Positions 18,298 through 51,497 of a DNA stretch of 64,000 nucleotides are shown in pieces. The translations under genes and the position numbers were made by a program. The stretch lies in contig NZ_CP134706.1 of the NCBI RefSeq assembly GCF_038246755.1, positions 6,141,501 to 6,205,500 on the forward strand, written 5' to 3'. The notes under the pieces are model-generated. The model saw nothing but the letters and a program-made list of their open reading frames with translations. It had not been told where the DNA came from and searched no databases. This DNA is from Micromonospora sp. FIMYZ51 (GTDB taxonomy: Bacteria > Actinomycetota > Actinomycetes > Mycobacteriales > Micromonosporaceae). Positions within the stretch are counted from its first letter, which is position 1. Every line of letters starts with the position of its first letter.

Positions 18298-19542
18298 GTG
18301 GATCTGGAGCAGCTCGCGGCGTTGCGTACCGCCGAGGGGGTGGCGGCGCTCGACTCGGCGGCTCGGGTCGCCGGCGGTGATCCGCTGGCGGCAGCGGGGG
18401 CGCTGCGCTCGGCCGGGGTGCCGGCCGGGTTGGCGGCGGCGGCGCTGACCCAGGCGGAGCTGCGCCGCCGGGCGGTCGCCAAGTTCGGGCCGGCGGCGGA
18501 GCAGATGTTCTTCACCCGACCCGGCCTGGAGCAGGCCACCCGGCAGGTTGTCGCGCGTCGGCGCGCCCGCCGGTTGCGCGCCGCCGGGGTGACCACCCTG
18601 GCCGACCTGGGTTGCGGGCTGGGTGCCGACGCACTCGCCGCCGCCCGCGAAGGCATCCGGGTGTACGGCGTGGAGGCCGACCCGGTCACCGCCGCGTTGG
18701 CCGAGGCGAACGCGCGAGCGGCGGGACTGGCCGAACGGTTCACCGTGGAGTGCGCCGACGCCACCGCGTTCGACGTCTCCCGGGTCGAGGCGGTCTTCTG
18801 CGATCCGGCCCGCCGCCGGGCCGGCACCGGCCGCCGGATCTTCGACCCGAACGCGTACTCACCGCCGTGGGACTTCGTCACCGGGCTGGCCGACCGGGTG
18901 CCGTACACGGTGGTGAAGGTGGCCCCCGGCCTCGACCACGCCCTGATCCCGACCGGCGCCGAGGCGGAGTGGGTGAGCGTCGACGGCGACCTCGTCGAGG
19001 CGACCCTCTGGTGCGGCCCGCTCGCCGAAACCCCCCGCCGCGCGACTTTGTTGAAGGAAGGGCCCCCTGTTAACGCCTCCGGTAGTAAAGGGGCCCCCTC
19101 TTATCACTCCGCCAGCGAGCCCGCCGTCTACCAGCTCACCGGCACGGGAGCGGCCGAGGCGCCGGTCGGGCCGGTACGCGGCTTCGTGTACGACCCGGAT
19201 CCAGCGGTGGTCCGCGCGCACCTGGTCGCCGAACTGGCCACCGAGCTGGACGCCACGCTTGCCGATCCGGCCATCGCCTACCTCTACGCCGATCGGGCCA
19301 CACCGACGCCGTACGCCCGTTGCCTGGCGGTGACCGACGTGCTGCCCTTCTCGCTCAAGCGGCTGCGTGCGCTGCTCCGGGAGCGCCGGGTCGGCCGCGT
19401 GGAGATCCGCAAGCGCGGCTCCGCACTGGAACCCGAGCGGCTCCGGCGCGATCTGCGGCTGACCGGCGATCAACCGGCCAGCCTGGTGCTGACCCGGGTC
19501 GCCGGGGCGCCGACGGTGCTGATCTGCCAGCCAACCGGCTGA
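18298..19542 (+). CDS. Class I SAM methyltransferase with THUMP-like C-terminus
   Basis: 414 aa. SAM-binding motif LADLGCGLGADALAAA near residue 105, EADPVTAALAEANA, and FCDPARRRAG as motif IV. The C-terminal domain (DVLPFSLKRLRALLRERRVG, EIRKRGSALEPERLRRDLRL) matches the THUMP-like domain of an actinobacterial methyltransferase family; an RNA substrate is plausible but unknown. GTG at 18298 gives MDLEQLAALRTAEG, a typical start. Residues about 253-270 are encoded by a 53-bp palindromic element also found at 44327 and 50821; they read KEGPPVNASGSKGAPSY and look like an insertion. Confidence 0.85.
   Translation: MDLEQLAALRTAEGVAALDSAARVAGGDPLAAAGALRSAGVPAGLAAAALTQAELRRRAVAKFGPAAEQMFFTRPGLEQATRQVVARRRARRLRAAGVTTLADLGCGLGADALAAAREGIRVYGVEADPVTAALAEANARAAGLAERFTVECADATAFDVSRVEAVFCDPARRRAGTGRRIFDPNAYSPPWDFVTGLADRVPYTVVKVAPGLDHALIPTGAEAEWVSVDGDLVEATLWCGPLAETPRRATLLKEGPPVNASGSKGAPSYHSASEPAVYQLTGTGAAEAPVGPVRGFVYDPDPAVVRAHLVAELATELDATLADPAIAYLYADRATPTPYARCLAVTDVLPFSLKRLRALLRERRVGRVEIRKRGSALEPERLRRDLRLTGDQPASLVLTRVAGAPTVLICQPTG
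19054..19106 (+). repeat. 53-bp palindromic element, copy A, inside the methyltransferase gene
   Basis: Starts AAGGAAGGGCCCC, has TTAACGCCTC in the middle and a second GGGGCCCC block before CTTATCA. It aligns without gaps over 53 bp to copies at 44327-44379 (minus) and 50821-50873. It is read through in frame, in the same sense as the gene. Confidence 0.88.
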
Positions 19543-19649
19543 CCGGCCGCCGAAACGCCGGGCGAGGGCCTGCGGGCCGCCCCCGAGGCCGAGTCAGGAC
19601 GCCGAAAAGCCGCTGGCCGGTGGCCGGGGCCGAGGGCTAGGTTGACCAC

Positions 19650-20129
19650 GTGGCGGGACGGGGTACGCCGGCGATGGTGCTGCTGGCGAAGCGGGGAATC
19701 ACCCATCGCACCCACCCGTACGATGTGCCGGCGGACGTACCGAACTACGGCGCGCTGGTCGCCGCCGCGCTCGGCGTCGCTCCGGAGCGGGTCTTCAAGA
19801 CGCTGGTGACCGAGGTGGACGGCGCACTCACCGTGGCGGTGGTGCCGGTCACCGGCGAGCTGGACCTGAAGGCCCTCGCGGCAGCGGTGGGCGGCAAGCG
19901 GGCGACGCTGGCCGAGCGGGTGGCGGCCGAACGGGCCACCGGCTACGTACGCGGCGGGATCAGCCCGCTCGGGCAACGCAAACGGCTGCCCACAGTGCTC
20001 GACGCCGCCGCCCTCGCGCACCCCACGGTGTACGTGTCGGCGGGTCGACGCGGGCTCCAGGTCGAACTGGACCCCGCCGACCTGATCGCGCTCACTGACG
20101 CCCGCACGGCCCGACTCACCGGCAACTGA
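19650..20129 (+). CDS. ybaK: YbaK-type Cys-tRNA(Pro)/aminoacyl-tRNA deacylase
   Basis: 159 aa, GTG start. YbaK fold: RVFKTLVTEVDG, VVPVTGELDLKALAAAVGGK (with the conserved Lys), YVRGGISPLGQRKRLPTVLD and GRRGLQVELDPADL. These free-standing editing enzymes remove Cys wrongly loaded on tRNA-Pro. Usual length is about 155-160 aa. Stands alone after the methyltransferase gene. Confidence 0.93.
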   Translation: MAGRGTPAMVLLAKRGITHRTHPYDVPADVPNYGALVAAALGVAPERVFKTLVTEVDGALTVAVVPVTGELDLKALAAAVGGKRATLAERVAAERATGYVRGGISPLGQRKRLPTVLDAAALAHPTVYVSAGRRGLQVELDPADLIALTDARTARLTGN

Positions 20130-20142
20130 CCCCCGACCGACC

Positions 20143-20229
20143 ACTCGACCGGCCGCTGGACCGACGCGACTCGACCGGCCGCTAGATCGACGACTCGACC
20201 GGCGCGACTCGACCGGTGGCTCGACTGAC
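20143..20229. repeat. Degenerate ACTCGACCGGC repeats
   Basis: Four scattered copies of ACTCGACCGG-type units, plus a diverged fifth, after the ybaK stop. The 274-bp gap to xylF holds these and the xyl promoter region. Confidence 0.5.
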
Positions 20230-20273
20230 CCCTGCTCCGGGCCGCCTACCGGTGGCCGGTGTCAGCGACGTTG

Positions 20274-20303
20274 CCGAATTGTTACCGCCCCCAACAAACT
20301 CGG
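20274..20303. promoter_or_regulatory. Imperfect inverted repeat upstream of the xyl operon, possible ROK operator
   Basis: CCGAATTGTT at the left and AACAAACTCGG at the right, around a C-rich spacer, about 100 bp before xylF. The position fits a repressor site for the ROK regulator at 23706, but the symmetry is imperfect and no consensus can be checked here. Confidence 0.3.
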
Positions 20304-20403
20304 AGCCGCCACGCTCTTGTGCTGTCGCTGTGACGCGGAATACGTTGCCGGGCACAACAAAACACACGATTACACATCCCCCACCCTTGAAAGGACCCTG
20401 CAC

Positions 20404-21498
20404 ATGCGCAAGGGCTTCCTCGCCGTCGGCACCGTGGGCCTGCTCGCCCTCGGCAGCCTGACGGCCTGCGGCGACGACTCCAACAACGAAGCGGGCGGCT
20501 CCGGCAAGACCCCCAAGATCGGCGTGATCCTGCCGGACAGCAAGTCCTCGGTCCGCTGGGAGAGCGCGGACCGCAAGTTCCTCAAGGAGGCGTTCGACGC
20601 GGCCGGCGTCGAGTCGGACATCCAGAACGCGCAGGGCGACAAGAACGCCTTCCAGACCATCGCCGACCAGATGATCACCGGCGGCGTCACCGTGCTGATG
20701 ATCGTCAACCTGGACTCCGGCACCGGTAAGGCCGTCCTCGACAAGGCCAAGTCACAGGGCGTGGCCACCATCGACTACGACCGCCTCACCCTCGGCGGCT
20801 CGGCGGAGTACTACGTCAGCTTCGACAACGTCGCGGTCGGCAAGCTCCAGGGCGAGGGCCTGGTCAAGTGCCTCACCGACGCGAAGGTGCAGAAGCCGGC
20901 GATCGCGTACCTGAACGGCTCGCCGACCGACAACAACGCGACCCTGTTCAAGGAGGGCTACGACTCGGTCCTCAAGCCGAAGTTCGACGCCGGCGAGTAC
21001 ACCCAGGCCGCCGACGACTCGGTGCCGGACTGGGACAACGCGCAGGCCGCGACCATCTTCGAGCAGCAGCTCACCAAGGCCGGCGGCAAGATCGACGGGG
21101 TACTGTCGGCAAACGACGGCCTCGGCAACGCCGCCATCTCGGTGCTGAAGAAGAACAACCTCAACGGCAAGGTCCCGGTGACCGGTCAGGACGCCGACCC
21201 GCAGGCGCTACAGAACATCCTCGCCGGTGACCAGTGCATGACCGTCTACAAGGCGGTCAAGAAGGAGGCAGACGCCGCCGCCGAACTGGCCATCGCACTG
21301 GCCAAGGGCGAGCGCAAGGAGACCGGTCAGACGGTGAAGGACCCGGAGACCGGCCGCGACGTGCCGTCCGTCCTGCTCACCCCGGCCGCGATCTACAAGG
21401 ACAACGTCAAGGACGTCATCGCCGACGGCTACGTGACCAAGGAAGAGATCTGCACCGGAGAATTCGCCAAGCTCTGCACCGACGCGGGCATCAGCTGA
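20404..21498 (+). CDS. xylF: Xylose-type sugar ABC transporter, substrate-binding lipoprotein
   Basis: 364 aa. Lipoprotein signal MRKGFLAVGTVGLLALGS followed by LTACGDD (lipobox Cys about 20), then a periplasmic-binding-protein-1 fold: KIGVILPDSKSSVRWESAD and ATIDYDRL, typical of XylF/ChvE pentose binders. ATG at 20404 follows GAAAGGA; longer starts run into non-coding sequence. First gene of a three-gene importer operon (binding protein, ATPase, permease), followed by a ROK regulator. Confidence 0.9.
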   Translation: MRKGFLAVGTVGLLALGSLTACGDDSNNEAGGSGKTPKIGVILPDSKSSVRWESADRKFLKEAFDAAGVESDIQNAQGDKNAFQTIADQMITGGVTVLMIVNLDSGTGKAVLDKAKSQGVATIDYDRLTLGGSAEYYVSFDNVAVGKLQGEGLVKCLTDAKVQKPAIAYLNGSPTDNNATLFKEGYDSVLKPKFDAGEYTQAADDSVPDWDNAQAATIFEQQLTKAGGKIDGVLSANDGLGNAAISVLKKNNLNGKVPVTGQDADPQALQNILAGDQCMTVYKAVKKEADAAAELAIALAKGERKETGQTVKDPETGRDVPSVLLTPAAIYKDNVKDVIADGYVTKEEICTGEFAKLCTDAGIS

Positions 21499-21601
21499 CC
21501 GTACCCGCCCCGGCGACGCCGCCCGGCACGGCAACTCCGTGCCGGGCGGCGCGACGCCGCCGGACGGGCCCCGATCTCCCTCCGTGAATAAGGAGACCCC
21601 C

Positions 21602-22420
21602 GTGTCCGCGACTCCACTGCTGGAACTGCGCGGGATCGACAAGAGCTTCGGTCCCGTCCAGGTCCTGCATGATGTTGCCCTCTCCGCCTACCCGGGCGAG
21701 GTGACCGCGCTCGTCGGCGACAACGGCGCCGGCAAGTCGACCCTGGTCAAGTGCATCAGCGGCATCCACCCCACCGATGCCGGCGAGTTCCTCTTCGACG
21801 GCCGACCGGTCAGCATCAACAGCCCGCGCGACGCCGCGTCGCTCGGCATCGAGGTCGTCTACCAGGACCTCGCGCTCTGCGACAACCTCGACATCGTGCA
21901 GAACATGTTCCTCGGCCGCGAGAAGCGCAGCGGCATCGTGCTCGACGAGCCGACGATGGAACAAATGGCCGCGGAGACCCTGGCCGGGCTCTCCGTACGC
22001 ACCGTCAAGTCGCTGCGCCAGCACGTCTCCAGCCTCTCCGGAGGCCAGCGCCAGACGGTGGCCATCGCCAAGGCGGTGCTCTGGAACAGCAGGCTGGTGA
22101 TCCTGGACGAGCCGACCGCCGCGCTCGGCGTCGCGCAGACCGCCCAGGTGCTCGAACTGGTCCGCCGGCTGGCCGACAACGGTCTGGCCGTCGTCCTCAT
22201 CTCGCACAACATGAACGACGTCTTCGCCGTCTCCGACCGCATCGCCGCGCTCTACCTCGGTCAGATGGTCGCCCAGGTGAAGACCACCGACATCACTCAC
22301 GCCCAGGTGGTCGAGCTGATCACCGCCGGTCGCTCCGGCGCGCTTGGACTGGCCGCCGACACGGGCGCCAACGGTAACGGCGCGGCGCCGGCCGACAGCA
22401 CCACGGGAGGCGTCTCATGA
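21602..22420 (+). CDS. xylG: Sugar ABC transporter ATPase, single-domain XylG
   Basis: 272 aa with one ABC domain: Walker A GDNGAGKSTLVK, Q-loop VVYQDLAL, signature SLSGGQRQTVAIAKA, Walker B LVILDEPTAALGV, H-loop ISHNMNDV. Classical XylG/RbsA ATPases of about 500 aa carry two ABC domains, so this is the half-size form that would act as a homodimer. GTG at 21602 follows AAGGAGA. Overlaps the permease start by 4 bp (ATGA). Confidence 0.92.
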   Translation: MSATPLLELRGIDKSFGPVQVLHDVALSAYPGEVTALVGDNGAGKSTLVKCISGIHPTDAGEFLFDGRPVSINSPRDAASLGIEVVYQDLALCDNLDIVQNMFLGREKRSGIVLDEPTMEQMAAETLAGLSVRTVKSLRQHVSSLSGGQRQTVAIAKAVLWNSRLVILDEPTAALGVAQTAQVLELVRRLADNGLAVVLISHNMNDVFAVSDRIAALYLGQMVAQVKTTDITHAQVVELITAGRSGALGLAADTGANGNGAAPADSTTGGVS

Positions 22421-23676
22421 GCACCACCGCCGTCAAGCAGGAGGGGCCGGCCGCCGTCGGATCGACACCCACCATCGGCAGCCACGTCCGTGGCTACTTG
22501 CGCCGGGTACGCGGCGGCGACATCGGCGCGCTGCCGGCGGTGGCCGGGCTGGTCGTCCTCTGCACGATCTTCTCGATCATGCGGCCGTCGTTCCTCACCG
22601 CGGGCAACTTCGCCAACCTGTTCACCCAGGGTGCGGCGGTCACGCTTATCGCGATGGGCCTGGTGTTCGTGCTGCTGCTGGGTGAGATCGACCTGTCGGC
22701 CGGCTTCGCCAGCGGCGTCTGCGCGGCGGTGCTGGCCAACGTGGTCACCGTCCTCGGACACCCCTGGTACGTCGCGGTGCTCGCCGCCGTGCTCACCGGA
22801 CTGGTGATCGGCACCTCGCTCGGCTTCCTGGTCGCCAAGGTCGGCATCCCCTCGTTCGTGGTCACCCTCGCCGGCTTCCTCGCCTTCCAGGGCGTGGTGC
22901 TGCTGCTGATGGAGGAGGGCCGGAACATCTCCGTCCGCGACCCGGTGCTGGTGGCGATCGCCAACCGCAACCTGCCGCCGGTGCTGGGCTGGACCCTGGC
23001 CGCGCTCGCGGTCGCCGGTTTCGCCGCGGTGCAACTGCTGCGCTACCGCAAGCGCACGGCGCGAGGTCTGCTCAACGACCCGCTGTCCATGGTGCTGGCC
23101 CGCATCGGCGTACTCACGGTCGTCCTCGGCGTCGCCGTCTACGTGCTCAACCTGGAACGCAGCCGCAACGTGCTGATCAGCTCGCTCAAGGGCGTGCCGA
23201 TCGTGGTGCCGATCATCGCCGTGCTGCTGGTGTTCTGGACCTTCGTGCTTCAGCGGACCAGCTACGGCCGGCACATCTACGCGGTCGGCGGCAACAAGGA
23301 GGCGGCCCGCCGGGCCGGCATCAACGTGGACCGGATCCGCATCTCGGTCTTCATGATCTGCTCCACCATGGCCGCGATCGGTGGCATCGTCGCCGCCAGC
23401 CGGGCCAACTCCGTCGACCCGAACACCGGGGGCAGCAACGTGCTGCTCTACGCCGTGGGCGCGGCGGTGATCGGTGGCACCAGCCTCTTCGGCGGCAAGG
23501 GTCGAGTCCTGGACGCGGTCCTCGGCGGCGCCGTCGTCGCCGTGATCGACAATGGGATGGGCCTGATGGGCTACAGCTCTGGCGTCAAGTACGTGGTCAC
23601 CGGTGTGGTACTGCTCCTCGCGGCAAGCGTCGACGCGCTGTCTCGACGACGAGCCGCCGCCACCGGCAACCGCTGA
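22417..23676 (+). CDS. xylH: Sugar ABC transporter permease, XylH type
   Basis: 419 aa, about ten membrane segments. Conserved permease core LGEIDLSAGFASGVCAAVLAN, YAVGGNKEAARRAGINVDR and GAAVIGGTSLFGGKGR, which are hallmarks of the ribose/xylose/galactoside permease family. Translationally coupled to the ATPase gene (ATGA overlap). Two copies probably form the membrane channel with XylG. Confidence 0.93.
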   Translation: MSTTAVKQEGPAAVGSTPTIGSHVRGYLRRVRGGDIGALPAVAGLVVLCTIFSIMRPSFLTAGNFANLFTQGAAVTLIAMGLVFVLLLGEIDLSAGFASGVCAAVLANVVTVLGHPWYVAVLAAVLTGLVIGTSLGFLVAKVGIPSFVVTLAGFLAFQGVVLLLMEEGRNISVRDPVLVAIANRNLPPVLGWTLAALAVAGFAAVQLLRYRKRTARGLLNDPLSMVLARIGVLTVVLGVAVYVLNLERSRNVLISSLKGVPIVVPIIAVLLVFWTFVLQRTSYGRHIYAVGGNKEAARRAGINVDRIRISVFMICSTMAAIGGIVAASRANSVDPNTGGSNVLLYAVGAAVIGGTSLFGGKGRVLDAVLGGAVVAVIDNGMGLMGYSSGVKYVVTGVVLLLAASVDALSRRRAAATGNR

Positions 23677-23705
23677 TCCGCACCACCGAAGGTAGTAAAG
23701 CTTCC

Positions 23706-24887
23706 ATGCGCGCAGGCCCCAGCCAGGACGAGATCCGCCGGCAGAATCTCGGCGCGCTGCTGCGTTACGTGCACCTGCACGGCGCCACCACGCGCGCCGA
23801 GTTGACCACCACGCTGGGGCTGAACCGGAGCACCATCGGCGCGCTCACCGCCGACCTCGCCGCGGCCGGCCTGGTGACCGAGGGGGCGCCGAGGGAGACC
23901 GGCCGGGCCGGACGACCATCGCTTGTCGTCCGGCCCGAGTCGGCCCGGGTTTTCGCGTACGCGTGCAGCATCGAGGTGGACCGGCTGCGGGCCGCGCGGG
24001 TCGGTCTCGGCGGTGCTGTGCTGGACCGGCGGGAGCTGGACCGGCCGCGCGGCCTGACCGCGACGGAGGCCGCCCCGCTGCTGGCCGGGGCGGTCAAGGA
24101 GATGCGGCACGGGCTGCCGGACGGTGCCGTCTGCGTCGGCGCCGGGGTGGCGGTCTGCGGGATGGTACGCCGGGACGACGGGCTGGTCCGGCTCGGCCCG
24201 ACCACCGGCTGGGTGGACGAGCCGATCGGCGCGGCGCTCGGCTCCGAACTCGGCGTCGACGTGCCGGTCACGGTCGGCAACGTGGCCGACGTGGCGGCCT
24301 TCGCCGAGCACGCCCGGGGCGCGGCGGCCGGCTGCGACAACGTGATCTACCTCTACGGCGACGTCGGCGTGGGAGCCGGAATCATCGCCGGTGGTCGGCG
24401 GCTGACCGGCCACGGCGGCTACAGCGGCGAGGTCGGACACATGGTGGTGGCCCGGGACGGCGCCCGCTGCGAATGCGGCAACCGGGGCTGCTGGGAAACC
24501 GAGATCGGCGAGCACGGGCTGCTCCGGGCCGCCGGCCGGTCCGACGCGCGCGGCCGGGACGCGATGCTTGCGGTCTTCGACGCCGCCGACCGGGGCGACG
24601 CCCGGGCCCAGGCCGCGGTCCGCCAGGCCGGTGACTGGCTCGGCTTCGGCGTGGCCAACCTGATCAACATCTTCAACCCGGAGATGGTCATCTTCGGCGG
24701 TACGATGCGTGACCTCTACCTGGCCGCCGCCGCCCAGGTACGCAGCCGGCTGAACTCCAACGGGCTGCCCGCCTGCCTGGAGCACGTCCGGCTGCGTACG
24801 CCGAAGCTCGGCGAGGACGCCCCGTTGATCGGTGCCGCCGAACTCGCCTTCGAGCGGCTGCTGGCCGACCCTCTCGACATCGGCTGA
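23706..24887 (+). CDS. ROK-family transcriptional regulator (XylR-like)
   Basis: 393 aa. N-terminal winged helix (QNLGALLRYVHLHGATTRAE, GLNRSTIGALTADLAAAGLV) and a ROK sugar-kinase-like domain with the zinc motif CECGNRGCWETE and nucleotide/sugar loops. Such regulators respond to a sugar and repress adjacent transport genes. It starts 29 bp after xylH in the same direction, so it probably controls the xylFGH operon. Function inferred from fold and position. Confidence 0.9.
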   Translation: MRAGPSQDEIRRQNLGALLRYVHLHGATTRAELTTTLGLNRSTIGALTADLAAAGLVTEGAPRETGRAGRPSLVVRPESARVFAYACSIEVDRLRAARVGLGGAVLDRRELDRPRGLTATEAAPLLAGAVKEMRHGLPDGAVCVGAGVAVCGMVRRDDGLVRLGPTTGWVDEPIGAALGSELGVDVPVTVGNVADVAAFAEHARGAAAGCDNVIYLYGDVGVGAGIIAGGRRLTGHGGYSGEVGHMVVARDGARCECGNRGCWETEIGEHGLLRAAGRSDARGRDAMLAVFDAADRGDARAQAAVRQAGDWLGFGVANLINIFNPEMVIFGGTMRDLYLAAAAQVRSRLNSNGLPACLEHVRLRTPKLGEDAPLIGAAELAFERLLADPLDIG

Positions 24888-25030
24888 CCTGGGCCGGCAG
24901 CGGACGAAAGCCGATTCCGGAAACGGTGAACTGATCAGCCAGACAATCCGTACCAGTGTGCGGACGGGCGGCCGACGGGGCGGGCCCGTCCCGTAGATGA
25001 TCGGTTCTCGTCCGAGGAGGCGCCGCAGAC

Positions 25031-25768
25031 ATGGCACCGCTGGATTCCGCTCGTCACCGGCAGGGCAACCGGTCCCGTCGTTTGGCGGTGCTGCTCACGA
25101 CCTTCGTCGCAGCCCTTGTCGCACTGCCCGGGGTGGCTCTGGCCGCGCCCGCCGGTCAGCAACTCGCCGCCGCCGACCAGGCCCTGCTCGACGGGGTGCG
25201 ACTGGCCGGGCTCTGGGAGATGCCGGCCGGGCAGATGGCCGCCGAGAAGGGCCAGTCGCGAGTGGTCCGGGAGGTCGGTGCCGAGATCGCCCGGCAGCAC
25301 GAGGAGTTGGACCGACTCACCGTGGAGGCCGCCAACAAGCTCGGCGCGACCATCCCGACCGTGCCGTCCGCGCAGCAGCAGCAGTGGCTGACGGAGATGA
25401 AGAACGCCACCGGCGCCCGCTTCGACCAGATCTTCGTCACCCGGCTCCGGGTCGCCCACGGCGCGATCCTGCCGGTCGTCACCGCGGTCCGGGGCGCCAC
25501 CCGCAACGACGTCATCCGCGACCTGGCCAACGCCACAAACAAGTTCGTGAGCGACCACATGCTGCTGCTGGAGAGCACCGGCCTGGTCCGCTATGCCGAA
25601 CTGCCGCCCGCCGTGCTGCCCGCGCCGGGCGAGGACGGACTGATCGCCGCCGCGCAGGCCAACAGCGCCCCGCAGGTGGGCATCAGCAACACCGTGATCT
25701 GGGCGATCTTCCTCGGCGCGCTGGGCGTCGGCGGATTCCTCACGTACCGCCTGTTCCGCCGTACCTGA
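25031..25768 (+). CDS. DUF4142 secreted, C-terminally anchored protein
   Basis: 245 aa. Signal peptide to about residue 37 (ending VALAAPAG). Helical DUF4142 domain at about 40-190 (LLDGVRLAGLWEMPAGQMAAE, VVREVGAEIARQHEELDRL). A C-terminal membrane segment (VIWAIFLGALGVGGFLTYRLF) is followed by Arg-Arg. DUF4142 is a ferritin-like helical fold of unclear function. It ends 15 bp before the copper protein gene and may be co-transcribed with it. Confidence 0.88.
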   Translation: MAPLDSARHRQGNRSRRLAVLLTTFVAALVALPGVALAAPAGQQLAAADQALLDGVRLAGLWEMPAGQMAAEKGQSRVVREVGAEIARQHEELDRLTVEAANKLGATIPTVPSAQQQQWLTEMKNATGARFDQIFVTRLRVAHGAILPVVTAVRGATRNDVIRDLANATNKFVSDHMLLLESTGLVRYAELPPAVLPAPGEDGLIAAAQANSAPQVGISNTVIWAIFLGALGVGGFLTYRLFRRT

Positions 25769-25783
25769 GCCAGCTACCGACCG

Positions 25784-27427: not shown

Positions 27428-27489
27428 CCGGCGGCCGGGTGCACGCCGCCAGGACTCCGCCGTCGGCAGGACTCCGCCGTCGCCAGACG

Positions 27490-42619: not shown

Positions 42620-42930
42620 CCCGCCGTACGCCCACCGCCGACCTGCCCGCCACGACCGACCCCCCGCCGTACGCCCACCGCCGACCTGCCCGCCGGCCGA
42701 CCTCGTCTCCGATCTAGCCGCCTGCCGGCCTGCTTGATCGCCGCCCCGACCCGATCTTCGATCTACCTGCCCGCCGGCTACCTGATCTTCGATCCGCCTG
42801 ACCGCCGCCCGACCCGATCTTCGGCCTACTTGAGGTCAGCTCACTGTCCCCCAGGCTCCTACGGCCCGCCGCAGGGCATGGCGTTCGCCGGTTCCGCGAC
42901 TGTCCGCTGGCCGGGCGCGGGTCGGCGACG
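42620..42930. other. 311-bp gap with degenerate GATCTTCGATC repeats
   Basis: No gene seen. Contains two CGTACGCCCACCGCCGACCTGCCCGCC-like units (about 42625-42700) and then three diverged units of about 32 bp carrying CGATCTTCGATC or CCGATCTTCGG cores (about 42710-42835). The short TTCG-looped palindromes could end transcription of the two convergent genes. Confidence 0.5.
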
Positions 42931-43551: not shown

Positions 43552-43572
43552 CGCCTTCTCCCCTCCCCCTCT

Positions 43573-43589
43573 TGCATTGGAGCAATGTA
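43573..43589. promoter_or_regulatory. Candidate PadR operator
   Basis: TGCATTG, GAG, CAATGTA: 7-bp arms with one mismatch, 22 bp before the padR start. Size and ATG..CAT character fit PadR boxes, suggesting autoregulation. Confidence 0.45.
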
Positions 43590-43715
43590 TCGGGAACTAC
43601 AGGAGAGAGCACGCGGCAAGACAGGCCCAGCCGCGCGTCGTGTTGACCATCCTGTGCGGACGGTGGGGCGCATCGTGGTCGCCCCCGTCACCGCATCGAC
43701 ACCGACTAAGATCGG

Positions 43716-43803
43716 GCCGAAGCCGAAGCCGAAGCCGAAGCCGAAGCCGAAGCCGAAGCCGAAGCCGAAGCCGAAGCCGAAGCCGAAGCCGAAGCCGAAG
43801 CCG
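43716..43803. repeat. Hexanucleotide GCCGAA array, about 14.5 copies
   Basis: Fourteen perfect copies of GCCGAA (43716-43799) plus a partial. A classical slippage-prone microsatellite in a non-coding region. Confidence 0.95.
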
Positions 43804-44183
43804 CCGCGCGGGGCACGCAGCAGCCGTCCCGGAGTGGCCATGGACCCGAGCACCAGCACCAGTTGCGGCACCAGCACCAGCAGCATTCGCGTCAGCGGCC
43901 TAGTCCGGCAGTTCCACGCCGACAGCGAGCGGCTGACCGGTGCCCTAACTGGCACGCTTGCCAACGGCCTGCTGGTGATGGCCCTCGCCACGGCGACCGC
44001 CAGCCGATTGTCACGTCCCTGGCTACGCCGCTGCGCCGCCAACTCCCGGTCGTGCTGCTATCGACGGCGCTGCTACCGGCGGTGCTGCTACCGGCGGTGC
44101 CGCTGCTGCTCCGCCGGCTACCGGGTGGCGCGGCTACCGGCCGGGGAAGACCGGCGATCACGGACAGGCCGACCAGCCGCCCA

Positions 44184-44260
44184 CCGCCAGCCGCCAGCCG
44201 CCAGCCGCCAGCCGCCAGCCGCCAGCCGCCAGCCGCCAGCCGCCAGCCGCCAGCCGCCAG
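44184..44260. repeat. Heptanucleotide CCGCCAG array, 11 copies
   Basis: Eleven perfect copies of CCGCCAG. No spacers, so not CRISPR. A second microsatellite in the same gap. Confidence 0.95.
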
Positions 44261-44326
44261 TGTCAACGAGACCGCCCTATCAACGGACCGCAGTGTAAGC
44301 GGGACCGCCGTGTCAACGGGCTGCGA

Positions 44327-44379
44327 TGTTAAAAGGGGGCCCTTCCTATACCTGAGGCGTTAAAAAGGGGCCCTTCCTT
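44327..44379 (-). repeat. 53-bp palindromic element, copy B, at the end of glmM
   Basis: On the minus strand it reads AAGGAAGGGCCCC, then TTAACGCCTC, then AGGGCCCCC and TTAACA. Its first two bases are the last two of the glmM TAA stop. With two GGGCCC palindromic blocks and flanking T-rich runs it could also act as the glmM terminator. Confidence 0.88.
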
Positions 44380-45733
44380 ACACCGCAGGGCTGGCGGTGC
44401 GGACCTGGTCGGCGATGCGTTCGGCGATTTGCTGCGCGGTCGCCTGGGTGGCGGCCTCGACCATCACCCGGACCAGGGGTTCGGTGCCGGAGGGGCGGAG
44501 CAGCACCCGGCCGCTCTCGCCCAACTCGGCCTCGGCCCGCTCGACCTCGGCGCGGACGGCGGGTGCGGTGGCGCCGACCGTGCGGTCGCCGACCGGTACG
44601 TTGATCAGCACCTGCGGCAGCTTGGTCACCACGGCGGCGAGATCCGCCAGGGTGCGGCCGGTGGCCGCCATCCGGGCCATCAGGTGCAGCCCGGTCAGCA
44701 CCCCGTCGCCGGTGGTGGCGTACGCCGGCATCACGATGTGCCCGCTCTGCTCGCCGCCCAACGCCAGCCCGGAGGCGCGCAACTCCTCCAGCACGTACCG
44801 GTCGCCGACCTTGGTCTCGACCAGCCGGATGCCTTCGGCGGACATGGCCAGGCGCAGGCCGAGGTTGCTCATCACGGTGGCCACCAGGGTGTCGCCGGTA
44901 AGCGTGCCGGCCTCCCGCATGGCCAGGGCCAGGATCGCCATCAGCTGGTCGCCGTCGACCTCCTCGCCGTCGGCGGTCACCGCGACGCAGCGGTCGGCGT
45001 CGCCGTCGTGCGCGATGCCCAGGTCCGCGCCGTGTTCCACCACGGCCTGGCAGAGGGCGGCGATGTGGTTCGAGCCGCACTCGTCGTTGATGTTGAGGCC
45101 GTCCGGCTCGGCATTGATCGCGATCACCTCGGCACCGGCCTCCCGGTACGCCGCCGGAGCCACCTCGGCGGCGGCGCCGTTGGCGCAGTCGACCACCACC
45201 TTGATCCCGTCCAGCCGGTGCGGCAGCGTCCCGACGAGGTGCTGTATGTAGTGGTTGGCGCCGTCGAGCAGGTCGTGTACCCGGCCCACCCCCGCGCCGA
45301 CCGGTCGCTCCCAGGCGGTCGTGGCGTTGGCCTCGATGGCCGCCTCGATCCGCATTTCGATCTCATCGGGCAGCTTGTGCCCACCTGCGGCGAAGAGCTT
45401 GATCCCGTTGTCGGGCATCGGGTTGTGCGAGGCTGACAGCATCACCCCGAGGTCCGCCTTGGCCTCGGCGGTGAGGAACGCCACCGCCGGGGTGGGCAGC
45501 ACCTCGACTCGGATGACCGTCGCGCCGGCGCTGGTCAGCCCGGCCACCACGGCCGCCTCCAGCATCTCGCCGCTGGCCCGGGTGTCCCGGCCGACCACGG
45601 CCAGCGGGGCGTGGCTGCGGTCCGACTCGGCGAGGGTGTGCGCTGCCGCGACGGCCACCGCGAGCGCCAACTCCGGAGTGAGATCGGCGTTTGCCCGCCC
45701 GCGTACGCCGTCCGTGCCGAACAACCGGCCCAT
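44378..45733 (-). CDS. glmM: Phosphoglucosamine mutase
   Basis: 451 aa. [24 protein letters not shown] opening, phosphoserine loop [14 protein letters not shown] (near residue 105), metal loop HDGDADRC, sugar loop GGEQSGHIV, and [15 protein letters not shown]. Converts GlcN-6-P (from GlmS) to GlcN-1-P for UDP-GlcNAc. ATG 45733 has GGAGG 8 nt upstream. Downstream of rpsI, with a terminator between. Its stop lies at the edge of a 53-bp element. Confidence 0.97.
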
Positions 45734-45772
45734 ACCCGCCAACCTCCGATGAACTGCCGATGGGGAGAGAGA

Positions 45773-45823
45773 AACGGCCGGTCCACCTCTGCCCCTGGTC
45801 GAGGGGGAGGCGGACCGGCCGTT
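45773..45823 (-). terminator. Stem-loop terminator after rpsI
   Basis: Long hairpin: AACGGCCGGTCC at 45773-45784 pairs with 45812-45823, with further pairing of CCTCTGCCCC to GGGGGAGG inside. Begins 28 nt after the rpsI stop. Confidence 0.85.
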
Positions 45824-45851
45824 CGTCAGAAGTACAAGATGCGGCTGGAGA

Positions 45852-46316
45852 TCAGCGCTTGGAGTACTGGGGAGCCTTACGGGCCTTCTTGAGACCGTAC
45901 TTCTTGCTCTCCTTGACCCGGGCGTCACGGGTGAGGAAGCCGGCCTTCTTCAGCGCCGGACGGTCGTCCGGCTCGCTGACGATCAGCGCCCGGGCGATGG
46001 CCAGCCGCAGCGCACCGGCCTGGCCGGTGGTGCCGCCGCCACGCAGGTTGGCGATGACGTCGAACGACTCGGCCTTCTCGGCGGTGACCAGCGGGTCCTT
46101 GATCAGCTGCTGGTGCACCTTGCTCGGGAAGTAGGCTTCCAGGTCCCGGCCGTTGCAGGTGATCTTGCCGGAGCCCGGCACGATGCGGACCCGGACGATG
46201 GCTTCCTTGCGCCGACCCACGGTCTGGATCGGGCGGTCACCACGAGGCGCGCGGGCGACGGGCGCCGGCGCCTCGGTGGCCTCGGGGGCGACCTCGGTGG
46301 CGGTGATGTCGGTCAT
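45852..46316 (-). CDS. rpsI: 30S ribosomal protein S9
   Basis: 154 aa. Acidic Ala/Pro/Glu N-terminal extension typical of actinobacteria, then [40 protein letters not shown] and the C-terminal tail [17 protein letters not shown] that reaches the P site. ATG 46316 with GAAGGAA upstream. Follows rplM by 20 bp. Confidence 0.98.
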
Positions 46317-46336
46317 GCTGATTCCTTCGCCCGCGC

Positions 46337-46780
46337 TCACTGCGCGATCTGCTTGATCTCGAACGGCACCGGCTGCTGCGCGCCGTGCGGGTGCTCGGCA
46401 CCGGCGTAGACCTTCAGCTTCTTGATGAGCTTACGGCCGAGCTTGTTGTGCGGGAGCATCCCCTTGACCGCCAGCTCGATGGCCCGCTCGGGGCGCTTGG
46501 ACAGCAGCTCCTCGTAGCCGACCTGCTTCAGGCCACCCGGGTAACCGGAGTGCCGATAGGCGATCTTCTGCTGGCGCTTGTTGCCGGTCAGCGCAACCTT
46601 GCCCGCGTTCACGATGACGACGAAGTCGCCCGTGTCGACGTGCGGCGCGAAAGTCGGCTTGTGCTTGCCCCGCAGCAGCGTGGCGGCGTGGGTGGCCAGG
46701 CGGCCCAGCACGACATCAGAGGCGTCGATGACGTGCCACTGACGCTCGATCTCACCCGGCTTCGGGCTGTACGTACGCAC
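46337..46780 (-). CDS. rplM: 50S ribosomal protein L13
   Basis: 147 aa, standard length, from GTG 46780 ([20 protein letters not shown]). [51 protein letters not shown]. Forms the rplM-rpsI operon. Confidence 0.98.
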
Positions 46781-46919
46781 AGGTCTACCTTGTCTCGTCG
46801 TCGGTCTGGGGTCGCGCGCCGAGGTGACCGGAAATTCCCGGCCTGACCAGCGCGCACGAACGACCAAGCGTACCTCAGGCGGCACGCCCACAGATGTCGT
46901 ACAACAGCAGGCAACGATA

Positions 46920-46971
46920 CCCGCAGCCCCACCGGCCGGTCAAAACGGGGTCCGACCGGTGCGGCTGCGGG
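46920..46971 (-). terminator. Stem-loop terminator after narK
   Basis: Arms of about 20 nt (46920-46941 and 46953-46971; CCCGCAGCC pairs with GGCTGCGGG, with a few mismatches inside), 16 nt beyond the narK stop. Confidence 0.7.
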
Positions 46972-46987
46972 GATCGGATGACCCCGG

Positions 46988-48355
46988 TCACACCCCGGCT
47001 CGTGCCATCCGGGTGCCGGCACGGAGATACGCCGCCCAGGTGACCACGATCAGGAGCAGGAAGAACCCGACGTAGAAGCGCAGCGCCGGCTCGATACCGC
47101 CGTAGCTGGACTTCGCCCAGGCGTAGCAGATCGGGACGAGGAAGCCGCCGAAGGCACCGACCGAGGAAATGACCCCCAGCGCGCCTGCGGCCTGCCGGCG
47201 CATCGCCAGCATCACCTCCGGCGAGCCGCCGAGGTCCTCCCCCTTGACCTGGAAGATCCGGCTGATCATCCGGTAGGTGGAACCGTTGCCGACCCCGGTG
47301 GCCACGAAGAGCAGCAGGAAGGCCACGAAGAACAGGCCCATGCTGCGTTGCTCGACGGACCAGAGCGCGGCCAGGGCGCCGACCGCCATCAGCATGAAGC
47401 TGGCCACCGTGATCCGGGCACCGCCGACCCGGTCGGCGAGCCGGCCGCCGAACGGCCGGCAGATCGAGCCCACCCCGGCACCGAGGAACGCCCAGGCCAG
47501 CGCGACGTCCGGCCGGCCGAAGACCGAGGTGAGCAGGGTCGGGAAGGCGGCCGAGTAGCCGATGAACGAGCCGAAGGTGCCGATGTAGAGCAGGGACATG
47601 ATCCAGGTGTCCCGGTGCCGCAACGACGACCAGACCGGGCCCACGTCGGCCTTCGCCTCGGCCAGGTTGTCCATGAACAGGTACGCGCAGACCGCCGCGA
47701 TCACCGCGAGCGGGATGTACATCAGGCCCGCCCGGGCCAGCGCGAGCCCACCACCGAGCACGATCACCTGCGGTACCAGGAACTGCACCACGGCCACGCC
47801 GATGTTGCCGCCGGCCGCGTTCAGACCGAGCGCCCAGCCCTTTTCCCGCTCCGGATAGAAGAAGGAGATGTTCGCCATGCTGGAGGCGAAGTTGCCGCCA
47901 CCGAAGCCGGCCGTGGCGGCGATCAGCACCAGCGGCAGGAAGCCGATCTCCGGATGTTCGACCGCCCAGGCCAGGCCCGCGCAGGGCACGATCAGCAGCA
48001 GCGCGGAGATGACCGTCCAGTTCCGGCCGCCGAAGATCGGCACGGCGAAGGTGTACGGCAACCGCAGCAGCGCGCCGACCCCGCTCGGTACGGCGGTCAG
48101 CCAGAGCGCCTGGCTGGTGGTCAACTGCCAGCCGGCGTCACCGAGCCGGACGACGACGATGCTCCACAGCAGCCACACCGAGAAGCCGATGTGCTCCGCG
48201 AAGATCGACCAGATGAGGTTGCGCCGGGCGACCCGGCTGCCCACTGTCCGCCAGAAGCCGGGATCCTCCGGTGCCCAGTGCCCGATCCAACGGCCGCGCC
48301 GCTGGTCCAGGTCGATCTCTTCGATTGCCGCTGGTCGCGCGCTCGTGGTGGTCAT
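46988..48355 (-). CDS. narK: Nitrate/nitrite MFS transporter
   Basis: 455 aa, about 12 membrane helices. NarK signatures: FGGGNFASSMANISFFYPEREKG (nitrate signature 1) and GFLVPICYAWAKSS with GNGSTYRMISRIF in the second half. N-terminal RWIGHWAPEDPGFWRTVG is typical of actinobacterial NarK/NasA-type importers. Moves nitrate in and/or nitrite out. It lies near nasA-nirBD but points the other way, so it is a separate transcript. Confidence 0.95.
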   Translation of the reverse strand: MTTTSARPAAIEEIDLDQRRGRWIGHWAPEDPGFWRTVGSRVARRNLIWSIFAEHIGFSVWLLWSIVVVRLGDAGWQLTTSQALWLTAVPSGVGALLRLPYTFAVPIFGGRNWTVISALLLIVPCAGLAWAVEHPEIGFLPLVLIAATAGFGGGNFASSMANISFFYPEREKGWALGLNAAGGNIGVAVVQFLVPQVIVLGGGLALARAGLMYIPLAVIAAVCAYLFMDNLAEAKADVGPVWSSLRHRDTWIMSLLYIGTFGSFIGYSAAFPTLLTSVFGRPDVALAWAFLGAGVGSICRPFGGRLADRVGGARITVASFMLMAVGALAALWSVEQRSMGLFFVAFLLLFVATGVGNGSTYRMISRIFQVKGEDLGGSPEVMLAMRRQAAGALGVISSVGAFGGFLVPICYAWAKSSYGGIEPALRFYVGFFLLLIVVTWAAYLRAGTRMARAGV

Positions 48356-48460
48356 GCCGGAAAGTTAGGAAGCGACAGTTACCGCGGCGTTCGCCGTTCG
48401 GGTCGAGGCGGCAACGGGGATCGCACCACCGACAGCCGGCGGCGGTGAGAAACCGGCGAC

Positions 48461-48754
48461 TCAGAGCTGCTGGAGGATGCGCAACGCCCGGTCCACCCGC
48501 CGCATGGTCTCGGCGTCGGCCACGTCCACGCACTCGGTGAACCACTTCTTCATCGGTGACGAGATGCGGTCGGGCATCACCACCCAGCCGCCCATCGGCA
48601 CCGCCAGGGGCGAGTCGCGCAGCAACGCCGCCTCGACCACCTCGGCGACGATCACGATGGGCACCGCGGTCGAGTTGTAGACATCGGAACTGATCACCAG
48701 CCCGAGCCGCTCCCGGGCCCCCTCGATGCGCCAGACCTCGCTCCTACGCAGCAC
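48461..48754 (-). CDS. MazF/PemK-like toxin
   Basis: 97 aa. VLRRSEVWRIEGARERLGLVISSDVYN and VPIVIVAEVV are the beta-barrel core of the MazF/PemK endoribonuclease family. GTG at 48754 overlaps the antitoxin 3' end by 11 bp, the usual antitoxin-first arrangement. Probably an mRNA interferase held inactive by the partner at 48744-49001. Catalytic residues cannot be assigned with certainty. Confidence 0.82.
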   Translation of the reverse strand: MLRRSEVWRIEGARERLGLVISSDVYNSTAVPIVIVAEVVEAALLRDSPLAVPMGGWVVMPDRISSPMKKWFTECVDVADAETMRRVDRALRILQQL

Positions 48755-49001
48755 GCGGGCGACCGCCGAAGAGCACGTCGTCGACCATGCCCACCTCCCG
48801 GGCATCGGCCAGCGCCGCTGCCTCCAGGTCCAGTCCGGCCCGGCTCACCGCGGCGGCGTGCGCGGCGAAGACCTCGCGCAGCGCCTTCTCCCGGGCCGCC
48901 TGGTCCATCCAGGCGGAAAGCGAGAGCCCTTCGCGCTTGGCGAAGCGCCGGGCCTCCGCGATCGTCTCGTCGGAGAACGACAGGGTCACCTTGGCCGTCA
49001 T
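48744..49001 (-). CDS. Ribbon-helix-helix antitoxin (MazE-like)
   Basis: 85 aa. N-terminal RHH: KVTLSFSDETIAEARRFAKR and EGLSLSAWMDQAAREKA, then a toxin-binding helical tail. Pairs with the MazF-like toxin, overlapping its start. The short inverted repeat 23 bp upstream is a likely autoregulation operator. Confidence 0.82.
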   Translation of the reverse strand: MTAKVTLSFSDETIAEARRFAKREGLSLSAWMDQAAREKALREVFAAHAAAVSRAGLDLEAAALADAREVGMVDDVLFGGRPRAA

Positions 49002-49023
49002 GCCGGCCAGATTACCCTCGGGT

Positions 49024-49038
49024 ATGACAGTTAGTCAT
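49024..49038 (-). promoter_or_regulatory. Antitoxin operator candidate
   Basis: ATGAC, AGTTA, GTCAT: perfect 5-5-5 inverted repeat upstream of the antitoxin start. A wider GGGTAT/ATACCC pair brackets it. Confidence 0.5.
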
Positions 49039-49257
49039 CCTCCGAATACCCCGACTCGTCACACCGGCTCGGAGCGTGGGCCGCCGAAGACGGCGCGCCG
49101 CGTCGTAGTTGCCCGCCACCGCGTCGAAAACCCGAGTCACCATCCATACCGGTCCGGCTATCCGCCACCCTCGACCTCGTCCCATAACTCAGGAAACTTG
49201 TTCCACATTGTAGACCGTTCGAACCGGCGCGTCGCCCCCGTGCGGTGTGAGCGGCTC

Positions 49258-49295
49258 TTGACAGGGCCGAAACAAACGGGACGCGGACCGGAAAC
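49258..49295 (+). promoter_or_regulatory. GlnR-like binding site upstream of nasA
   Basis: TTGAC-6nt-GAAAC-6nt-GACGC-6nt-GAAAC. This has the exact GTnAC-n6-GAAAC-n6-GTnAC-n6-GAAAC spacing, with both GAAAC boxes perfect and the second GTnAC box poor. GlnR is the nitrogen regulator of actinomycete nitrate/nitrite genes. The site ends only 24 nt before the nasA ATG. Confidence 0.55.
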
Positions 49296-49319
49296 CGCCC
49301 AACGGCACGCTTTGCCGAC

Positions 49320-51497
49320 ATGACAGACGGTGCACGAGCGGCGACGCTATCGGGGCCCACGCCCCGGGAGGTGGCGACGCACTGCCCGTACTGCGCCCTC
49401 CAGTGCGGGATGACCCTGCGCGAGGAGCACGGCCAGGTGACCGTGCTGCCCCGGGAGTTCCCCACCAACCGGGGCGGCCTCTGCCAGAAGGGCTGGACCT
49501 CGGCCGAGCTGCTCCACCACCCCGACCGGCTGACCACCCCGCTGCTCCGCGACCCGGCCAGCGGTGAGCTGCGCCCGGCGACCTGGGACGCCGCGCTGGA
49601 GCGGATCACCACCGGACTGCGCGACGTGCAGCGGCGGCACGGCCGCGATGCGGTCGCCGTCTTCGGCGGGGGCGGGCTCACCAACGAGAAGGCGTACGCG
49701 CTGGGCCGGTTCGCCCGGGTGACGCTCGGCACCCGGCACATCGACTACAACGGACGGTTCTGCATGTCCTCGGCCGCTGCGGCGGGCATGCGCGCCTTCG
49801 GTGTCGACCGTGGGCTGCCGTTTCCCCTGGCCGACCTCGGTCGGGCGGACACCCTGCTGCTGGTCGGCGCGAATCCGGCGGAGACCATGCCGCCGCTGAT
49901 GCGCTGGCTGACCGAGCAGCGGCAGCGGGGCGGCAAACTGATCGTGGTCGACCCTCGGGTCACCGCCACCGCACGGCAGGCCGACCTGCACCTGCAACCC
50001 CTGCCCGGCACCGATCTGGCGGTGGCCAACGCGCTGCTGCACATCGCCCTGACCGCCGGCTACCTCGACGAGTCCTACATCGAGACCCGCACCCACGGCT
50101 TCACCGCCGTCCGCCGGACCGTGGCGAGTTGGTGGCCGGCCCGCGCCGAGGCGCTCTCCGGCGTACCCGTGGCCGACCTGGAGGAGACCGCCCGCGCCCT
50201 CGGCACCGCCGAGCGGGTCATCATCCTCACCGCCCGGGGCGCAGAACAGCACGCCAAGGGCGTCGACACGGTCACCGGCTTCGTCAACCTGGCGCTCGCG
50301 CTCGGCCTACCCGGCCGGCCCGGCTCCGGGTACGGCTGCCTGACCGGGCAGGGCAACGGGCAGGGCGGGCGGGAGCACGGGCAGAAGGCCGACCAGCTCC
50401 CCGGTTACCGGAAGATCGACGACCCCGAGGCGCGGGCACACGTCGCGCGGGTGTGGGGGGTGCCCGCCGACGAGCTGCCCGGACCGGGCGTGCCGGCGTA
50501 CCAGTTGCTGGACTCGCTGGGCACGGCGGAGGGGCCACGGGCGTTGCTGGTCTTCGGCTCCAACCCGGTGGTCTCCGCACCTCGCGCCGCCCGGATCGAG
50601 GGCCGGCTGCGCGACCTGGACCTGCTCGTCGTCGCCGACTTCCTGCTCTCCGAGACGGCCGCGCTGGCCGACGTGGTGCTGCCCACCGCCCAGTGGGCCG
50701 AGGAGGAGGGCACGATGACCAACCTGGAGGGACGGGTGCTGCGCCGCCGCGCACTGCGCCGCCCCCCACCCGACGTCCGCACCGACCTGGAAATCCTCGC
50801 CACCCTCGCCACCCGCCTGCAAGGAAGGGCCCCTTCTTATCGCCTGGTGCATAGCAAGGGCCCCCTATTAACAGCCAGCAGCGACCAGGCGGCCGACGCC
50901 GCCGATCCGCGTACGGTGTTCGAGGAGCTGCGGCGGGCCTCAGCCGGCGGGCTCGCCGACTACGCCGGGATCAGCTGGGAGCGGATCGACGCCGCCGACG
51001 GGGTCTTCTGGCCGTGCCCGCGCGAGGACGAGGCCGACTCCCCCCGACTCTTCGCCGACCGCTTCGCCACCCCCGACGGGCTGGCCCGGTTCCACCCGGT
51101 GGAGCACCGGCCGGCCGCCGAGGAGGTCTGCGCCGAGTATCCGCTGCACTTCACCACCGGCCGGGTGCTCGCCCAGTACCAGTCCGGCAACCAGACCCGC
51201 CGGGTGGCCGCGTTGCGACGGGCGGCACCGGAAGCCTCCGTGGAACTGCATCCCGACCTCGCCGCCCGGCTGGGCGTGACCGACGGTGAACCGGTCCGGG
51301 TGGTCTCCCGGCGCGGCGAGTTCCGGGCGCCGGCCCGGCTCAGCTCGGCCATCCGGCCGGACACGGTCTTCGCGCCCTTCCACTGGGGCGGGGCGGCACG
51401 GGCCAACTCGGTCACCAACGACGCCGTCGACCCGATCTCCGGGATGCCCGAGTTCAAGATCTGCGCGGTCCGGGTGGAGAGAGCGGCAACGCCATGA
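49320..51497 (+). CDS. nasA: Assimilatory nitrate reductase, molybdopterin catalytic subunit
   Basis: 725 aa. [4Fe-4S] site Cys22, Cys25, Cys29 (HCPYCALQCGM) and Cys55 (GGLCQKG). bis-MGD domain: DYNGRFCMSSAAAAGMRAFG (Cys as likely Mo ligand), LLVGANPAETMPP, VVDPRVTATA, LTGQGNGQGGREHGQKADQLPGY; C-terminal molydopterin-binding barrel (FTTGRVLAQYQSGNQTRR). Reduces nitrate to nitrite. Residues about 501-518 come from a 53-bp repeat (QGRAPSYRLVHSKGPLLT) inserted between TRL and the next domain. ATG at 49320 has no ribosome site. Stop overlaps the next start (ATGA). Confidence 0.93.
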   Translation: MTDGARAATLSGPTPREVATHCPYCALQCGMTLREEHGQVTVLPREFPTNRGGLCQKGWTSAELLHHPDRLTTPLLRDPASGELRPATWDAALERITTGLRDVQRRHGRDAVAVFGGGGLTNEKAYALGRFARVTLGTRHIDYNGRFCMSSAAAAGMRAFGVDRGLPFPLADLGRADTLLLVGANPAETMPPLMRWLTEQRQRGGKLIVVDPRVTATARQADLHLQPLPGTDLAVANALLHIALTAGYLDESYIETRTHGFTAVRRTVASWWPARAEALSGVPVADLEETARALGTAERVIILTARGAEQHAKGVDTVTGFVNLALALGLPGRPGSGYGCLTGQGNGQGGREHGQKADQLPGYRKIDDPEARAHVARVWGVPADELPGPGVPAYQLLDSLGTAEGPRALLVFGSNPVVSAPRAARIEGRLRDLDLLVVADFLLSETAALADVVLPTAQWAEEEGTMTNLEGRVLRRRALRRPPPDVRTDLEILATLATRLQGRAPSYRLVHSKGPLLTASSDQAADAADPRTVFEELRRASAGGLADYAGISWERIDAADGVFWPCPREDEADSPRLFADRFATPDGLARFHPVEHRPAAEEVCAEYPLHFTTGRVLAQYQSGNQTRRVAALRRAAPEASVELHPDLAARLGVTDGEPVRVVSRRGEFRAPARLSSAIRPDTVFAPFHWGGAARANSVTNDAVDPISGMPEFKICAVRVERAATP
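50821..50873 (+). repeat. 53-bp palindromic element, copy C, inside nasA
   Basis: AAGGAAGGGCCCC then TTATCGCCTG then AAGGGCCCCC and TTAACA. Ungapped match to copies A and B. Read in a different frame from copy A and still stop-free. Confidence 0.88.

Follow-up and report, generated by a model that had tools for sequence, protein, structure and literature searches.

The 64,000-bp stretch of the Micromonospora sp. FIMYZ51 genome analyzed here (contig C1, NZ_CP134706.1, positions 6141501-6205500; hereafter the window) carries three copies of a 56-bp palindromic element found at nearly 200 sites of the genome. We think it probable that these copies belong to a family of non-autonomous, hairpin-forming doublets akin to repetitive extragenic palindromic (REP) sequences and to the REP doublets called REPINs, a family that does without the REP-associated tyrosine transposases (RAYTs) and is under recognition at the level of the hairpin. 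The family is essentially confined to the genus Micromonospora, whose genomes are designated below by handles; G000 is the genome of the window itself, in one contig of 7,046,848 bases. A preliminary description of the window had reported three copies, and these are indeed present where it placed them and beyond chance: a unit pattern allowing up to 3 mismatches has 6 matches in the window, two units per copy, compared with a mean of 0.26 and a maximum of 2 in 100 shuffles.

Each copy is a direct doublet of an imperfect palindromic unit of about 25 bp, repeated with a period of 31 bp, and runs from TG to CA. Among 142 strict copies, whose consensus is TGNAAGGAAGGGCCCCYTNTTAACGCCTSSKGTAKAGGAAGGGCCCCYTNTTAACA, the right edge is sharp (A at the last base, 0.97) and the left edge graded (T 0.68, G 0.91); a weaker GG precedes the element (62% each) and C-rich bases follow it. 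The strict pattern fixed most inner positions of the consensus and left the edges free, so the 100% conservation of the inner positions is not a measurement. The first unit is preceded by GTGN and the second by GTAG or GTAT (position 31 is G in 0.77 and T in 0.23 of the same copies). The two palindromic blocks originally recognized correspond to these units, the spacer placed between them is part of the 31-bp direct repeat, and the extent has been refined from 53 to 56 bp. The whole element can be folded as one imperfect hairpin, at -23.7 kcal/mol for the consensus as RNA. Solo units are rare: 600 kb of G000 contain 1, 580 kb of G084 a single site, and five other stretches none. The G084 solo unit (C1, about 4023733) is a 29-bp perfect palindrome, GGTGTTAGGAAGGGTCCCTTCCTAACACC, and resembles a doublet minus its inner 31 bp. 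Inverted pairs or triples of the same units occur in G021 and G006 (six short stretches, L391-L396), where they form very long near-perfect hairpins.

A genome-wide search for further copies, set beforehand, found 325 exact half-sites of the unit AAGGGCCCCYTNTTA in G000, 162 on one strand and 163 on the other, so the window does not hold the only copies. The reversed pattern, used as a control in G000, had 0 matches, and a longer pattern of the first unit had 198. Of at least 120 stretches matched in a GTDB scan, the 80 that were listed all come from Micromonospora species or from Micromonosporaceae bacterium KJ-029. The pattern AAGGRRGGGCCCCYTNNTAACGCCT was found in 32 of 81 genus genomes, G000 included, and had no match in 49. 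A scan of 150 genomes of the family gave 12 with matches: 10 of the 16 in Micromonospora, and 2 of the 134 others, with only 2 and 1 copies. Neither a scan of viral contigs with the exact pattern nor a distant search of plasmids gave a match. The carriers do not form one clade: on a glmM tree of 30 genomes (14 carriers, with 8 or more copies, vs 16), their distribution needs 7 changes (shuffled mean 10.3), of which 4 are forced by well-supported branches. Two of the genomes counted as having zero copies, G031 and G032, each show a single half-site in another count.

Most copies sit at gene ends. In 600 kb of G000, with genes called by a home-made codon-usage finder, 33 copies were found: 11 in convergent gaps, 17 in tandem gaps (10 sense, 7 antisense), 3 in divergent gaps and 2 within genes. 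The stop codon of the sense gene falls within -25 to +10 of the copy start for 19 of the 31 intergenic copies, compared with 5.6% of 4000 random intergenic placements, and 6 further intergenic copies have the stop of an antisense gene at their other end (random 5.4%). G084 has 16 sense-stop and 3 antisense-stop copies among 29, and G003 has 9 and 1 among 12. In a larger, biased sample, 132 copies are preceded by a gene in sense; its stop falls within -23 to +7 in 126 of them and further off in 6, and it comes before the element in 60. One of our tallies of stop offsets starts 14 bases before the element and takes in no stop further upstream. A set of 228 elements (157 loci of the strict full-length pattern, 19 own-genome pattern loci, 15 from one methyltransferase site and 37 from plain stretches) has 24 in-gene calls, which on reading are 15 methyltransferase copies, 2 nasA copies, 4 open reading frames (ORFs) ending at the last stop of the element and 3 uncertain cases near a gene start. 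It had been proposed that the repeat is selected for sense-strand openness. With 2 of 33 copies in genes, openness is not a trait of the family, since most copies sit at gene ends, carrying or supplying stops. RNA genes were also considered as hidden upstream genes of the antisense copies; a thiamine pyrophosphate riboswitch and two tRNAs turned up in 120 kb of G000 and were not found to explain the placement. In the window, Rfam had no match at gathering score, and one far below it (E 0.57) lies at the glmM copy.

The copies vary jointly at some positions of the whole-element hairpin. Its loop occurs in two covarying registers (228 copies): position 26 is G with T or C at 27 in 75 of 83 copies, and another base with G at 27 in 141 of 145. 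Among 276 distinct copies, the stem pairs 9-40 (p<0.0005), 5-44 (p 0.002) and 15-34 (p 0.04) covary above shuffles, a comparison that ignores the relatedness of the copies. Among the dyad pairs within each unit only 5-13 is in excess (p 0.049), and 34-46 and 31-49 are below shuffles.

One species, G084, has a dialect of the element. The pattern GGGTCCC has 89 matches there vs 38 for GGGCCCC, and at most 15 in the other 80 genomes (G001, vs 168). The largest differences between G084 and G000 over the 56 positions are at 9, 16, 40 and 47 (0.94, 0.91, 0.87 and 0.74; the next are 0.44 at 13 and 0.42 at 46), positions that were chosen after seeing G084. In 31 copies of G084, position 9 has T in 21, A in 2, G in 1 and C in 7; position 16 has C in 29 and T in 2; position 40 has A in 16, T in 11 and C in 4; and position 47 has C in 30 and T in 1. 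The corresponding counts in 77 copies of other stretches are C75 G2, T75 C2, C61 G12 T3 A1 and T73 C4, and those in 14 copies of G003, which is sister to G084 on the glmM tree (Shimodaira-Hasegawa-like approximate likelihood ratio test, SH-aLRT, 98), are C14, T14, C10 G4 and T13 C1. At 17 orthologous sites, G000 and G084 agree at the four positions in 24, 12, 6 and 6%. Over 20 other variable positions, by contrast, their agreement exceeds that of shuffled pairs (0.691 vs 0.626, p 0.0002; 0.697 vs 0.641, p 0.005, when the two in-gene sites are left out). Orthologues of G003 and G084 also agree above shuffled pairs (n 9, p 0.016; without in-gene sites n 7, p 0.033), as do those of G000 and G003 (n 9, p 0.005), the latter not significantly without in-gene sites (n 7, p 0.19). 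Because orthologues differ at the dialect positions and agree above shuffles elsewhere, the dispersed copies of G084 seem to have changed in place and in step. Of the suggestion of a small mobile or gene-converting repeat, the joint change of many copies is borne out in one species. Gene conversion is not favoured as its cause, because the change falls mainly on certain hairpin positions and an orthologue-specific signal persists at others; short-tract conversion may have contributed.

Three imperfect pairs, 2-47 and 16-33 (G.T) and 9-40 (C.C), contain all four dialect positions; the hairpin has further imperfect pairs. Of 20 pairs, 16.9 are Watson-Crick in G084, compared with 14.1 in G000, 13.3 in G003 and 15.0 in G021, and wobbles number 0.35 in G084 vs 2.24, 2.14 and 1.83, respectively. 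From G000 to G084, the folding energy of the 17 orthologous pairs as RNA goes from -25.1 to -32.1 kcal/mol (Wilcoxon p 0.0004), and that of their reverse strand from -23.1 to -33.5. Pair 9-40 is T-A in 12 and T.T in 7 of the 31 G084 copies. The copies of G084 have lost GGGCCC and TTAA, but restriction avoidance was rejected as a cause: in the rest of that genome GGGCCC stands at 0.73 of expected, no special depletion next to 0.64-0.93 in six others, and TTAA, at 1.66, shows no avoidance.

The three copies of the window and their host genes are listed in Table 1. All three run in the same sense as the host gene and the two in-gene copies are read in different frames, as first described; the third was rightly placed at the glmM stop codon, which lies within TGTAAGG of the element.

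Table 1. Copies of the 56-bp element in the window and the genes that host them (gene names are those of the preliminary description).
Feature	Position	Strand	Remarks
Element copy 1	19051-19106	+	Inside methyltransferase gene, frame 0, peptide KEGPPVNASGSKGAPSY; in-frame insertion relative to orthologues
Element copy 2	44327-44382	-	3' end of glmM; TAA of the element is the glmM stop codon
Element copy 3	50818-50873	+	Inside nasA, frame 2, peptide GRAPSYRLVHSKGPLLT; in-frame insertion relative to orthologues
Methyltransferase ORF	18256-19542	+	Host of copy 1; match in 60/61 genus genomes
glmM ORF	44378-45733	-	Stop is the TAA of the element; 30 loci compared, own included
nasA ORF	49320-51497	+	Host of copy 3; match in 61/61 genomes; 30 loci aligned

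Orthologous sites with and without the segment exist for both in-gene copies, in line with a small dispersed insertion-like repeat and not with conserved protein sequence. Many methyltransferase orthologues have the segment, in frame, and others lack it. The 30 loci studied for each gene are those scoring best for a query that contains the insert, so they favour insert-bearing orthologues. Among the methyltransferase loci, 14 of the 17 from genomes with 20 copies or more hold a copy with a score above 30, as do 2 of the 3 from genomes with 6-10 and 0 of the 10 from genomes with none; one of these ten, G080, has a decayed copy (score 25.3). Presence follows the copy number of the genome (Spearman 0.60, p 0.0005, 30 loci, own included, not corrected for relatedness). 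The nasA peptide is clear, by reading, in 9 of 30 loci and absent, for example, from G007, G031, G065 and G068. These copies lack stops that the element would otherwise carry: the last TAA is absent from all 16 methyltransferase copies scoring above 30, and the middle TAA and TAG from all 7 of the clear nasA copies that were inspected as DNA. Openness is therefore a local adaptation at the two in-gene sites. Behind glmM, 4 of 30 loci have a copy (G000, G001, G003 and G082). In G082 it stands directly behind the native TGA, and G000 and G001 look as if four bases including the native stop had been lost and the TAA of the element were used in its place. Clean pairs of empty and full sites right behind a TGA were found for G078 and G003 vs G007 at one gene end and vs G021 at another, most other gene-end pairs being too diverged to place the ends of the element.

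Other repeats are present in the window. A second palindromic type, of 67 bp, lies at 4451-4517 (GATCATGCACTT...AAGTGCATGATC); G021 and G019 have the 56-bp element at this site instead, and G078 and G082 similar hairpins. Simple tandem repeats (a KPKPKP run and a GGCTGGC run) are found between two genes at about 43.7-44.3 kb, near glmM.

These data are most simply read as a constraint that acts on dispersed copies at the level of the hairpin, and it could be exerted by a mobilising enzyme, by a factor binding RNA or single-stranded DNA, or by selection on transcript ends. We suggest that a trans-acting factor other than a RAYT would recognize the element as a hairpin, in single-stranded DNA or in RNA, and would spread its copies, maintain them, or both. 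Gene ends would be the niche that tolerates a stop-bearing hairpin, and the element would there probably act as a 3' mRNA hairpin, either a terminator or a barrier to decay. A more specific proposal, which we regard as possible but rather doubtful, is that a living, RAYT-independent machinery recognizes the doublets as hairpins and keeps their register genome-wide, its preference having shifted in G084 to the fully paired hairpin, with many dispersed copies, orthologous ones within and behind genes among them, following in place. If true, this would be a new way to spread and maintain bacterial repeats.

Several results weigh against such a mobile, hairpin-recognized family. The RAYT domain Y1_Tnp (PF01797) has no match in G000 and, among 61 genomes, matches in 3 of 23 carriers vs 14 of 38 non-carriers; the RAYT model NF047646 is over its cut-off in 0 of the 81 genus genomes, with weak matches below it in 14. 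RAYT is not the acting factor. Most stem pairs do not covary; among the 276 distinct copies, 13-36 falls short of significance (0.08) and 3-46 has no covariation, and the signal at 9-40 leans on G084 copies. The z-scores of folding are modest, with a mean of -1.9 over 60 copies and 37% below -2. Empty sites gave no target duplication by eye, no very recent insertion was seen, and movement is deduced from presence and absence between species. The stop is supplied by the element itself in 66 of the 132 sense copies, which the null of random placement does not model; such stops are, unlike the 60 that precede the element, partly mechanical, because any frame entering the element ends there, and the reading is weakened in that half of the stop positions come from the element. 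Finally, among the 33 own-genome copies, 7 run antisense to the genes on either side and 3 are in divergent gaps. On the proteins encoded next to copies, we recognized no transposase by eye among the 25 largest of 249 clusters, on which no family search was run.

Alternatively, each copy might be the intrinsic transcription terminator of its gene, immobile and preserved because termination is selected for, which we consider unlikely. Their sense orientation at stops, their enrichment in convergent gaps and their hairpin with a T-rich right end are what terminators would show; by eye, the ends of some orthologous genes have a different hairpin in other species, the inverted pairs of G021 and G006 are very strong versions, and the copies of G084 gained pairing. 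Terminators should not, however, be read in frame within methyltransferase and nasA, where termination would be harmful, nor belong to one sequence family at nearly 200 sites whose C-form pattern has no match in 49 of 81 genomes, nor lie antisense or in divergent gaps. It is more doubtful still that the doublets are paired binding sites, 31 bp or about three helical turns apart, of a chromosome-organizing or regulatory DNA-binding protein that co-evolved with the dialect of G084. Many invariant positions without covariation would fit such sites, as would the like alteration of both units in G084, but all four dialect positions are in pairs of the whole-element hairpin, whose pairing improves, the dyad pairs within units have no excess beyond 5-13, and insertion at stops and in genes is unexpected for ordinary operators. 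Equally improbable is a miniature inverted-repeat transposable element (MITE) of 56-60 bp with ends GGTGT...ACACC, moved in trans by a DDE or other transposase. The TG...CA edges and the solo palindrome of G084, which has these very ends, speak for it, the inverted ends of the element being imperfect; however, no target duplication was seen by eye at the empty sites, viral contigs (exact pattern) and plasmids gave no match, and no full-length parent was met, none having been searched for systematically. The idea of conserved protein segments or chance similarity, for which only the translation of two copies speaks, is refuted by the 325 half-sites vs 0 for the reversed pattern, by the orthologues without the segment and by the noncoding copies.

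RAYT transposases account for REP-type repeats in most cases. A REP-like family that reaches high copy number without RAYT in an actinobacterial genus therefore implies either an unrecognized mobilising system or maintenance by host selection. The dialect makes this question testable, because many orthologous copies are in different states in sister species and the factor acting on them should differ accordingly. Repeats at so many gene ends may shape transcript ends, and they can mislead the annotation of C-termini and the alignment of proteins such as NasA.

In intrinsic terminators, a hairpin and then T-rich DNA come after the stop codon. The Micromonospora element shares this arrangement and differs in being one dispersed homologous family, also present in genes and antisense. 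Rickettsia palindromic elements, which are about 150 bp long and largely within genes according to the available part of PMC10969869, resemble it in that they insert in frame into unrelated genes, whose products gain a peptide. The likeness to them, already drawn in the preliminary description, fits the methyltransferase and nasA sites; with 2 of 33 copies in genes, unlike the largely coding Rickettsia elements, the family as a whole is closer to REP and REPIN repeats. Two short Rickettsia elements, RPE-4 and RPE-6, are themselves counted among the CGTC REPs in the part of PMC3733652 available to us. No description of the Micromonospora family was found among the top-ranked literature matches, subscription papers not being covered; in the accessible text of two Micromonospora genome papers (PMC5765111, PMC6026663) all mentions of palindromic repeats concern clustered regularly interspaced short palindromic repeats (CRISPR), and the main text of PMC3733652, as far as it was available, has 0 mentions of Actinobacteria, Micromonospora, Salinispora or Streptomyces.

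REP families of the GTAG and CGTC types are described in the same portion of PMC3733652 as short, highly repeated palindromic units that stand alone or in pairs and occupy mostly unidirectional or convergent gaps; many lie within 20 bp of ORF 3' ends, their termini supply stops, and some copies are intragenic. The Micromonospora element shares these gap types, the association with ORF 3' ends (31 of 33 copies intergenic, 19 of 31 with a sense stop, 3 of 31 divergent), the stop-supplying termini and the occasional copies in genes, and its unit of about 25 bp, with 325 exact half-sites, falls within the 20-40 bp of REPs. The tag is GTAG, GTGG or CGTC in REPs; here, a GGGCCC palindrome is preceded by GTGN in unit 1 and by GTAG or GTAT in unit 2. 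Unlike REPs, the units are paired mostly in direct orientation and no RAYT is over the cut-off in the genus sample. We call the family REP-like because association with a RAYT, a defining feature of REPs and REPINs, was tested for and not found. REPINs are REP doublets that form hairpins and are tied to RAYTs (PMC3116915, in the part available). The doublet of G000 is direct and not inverted, and has no RAYT, while G021 and G006 have inverted pairs; as in REPINs, the doublet is the common entity, solo units are rare and the doublet folds as one hairpin.

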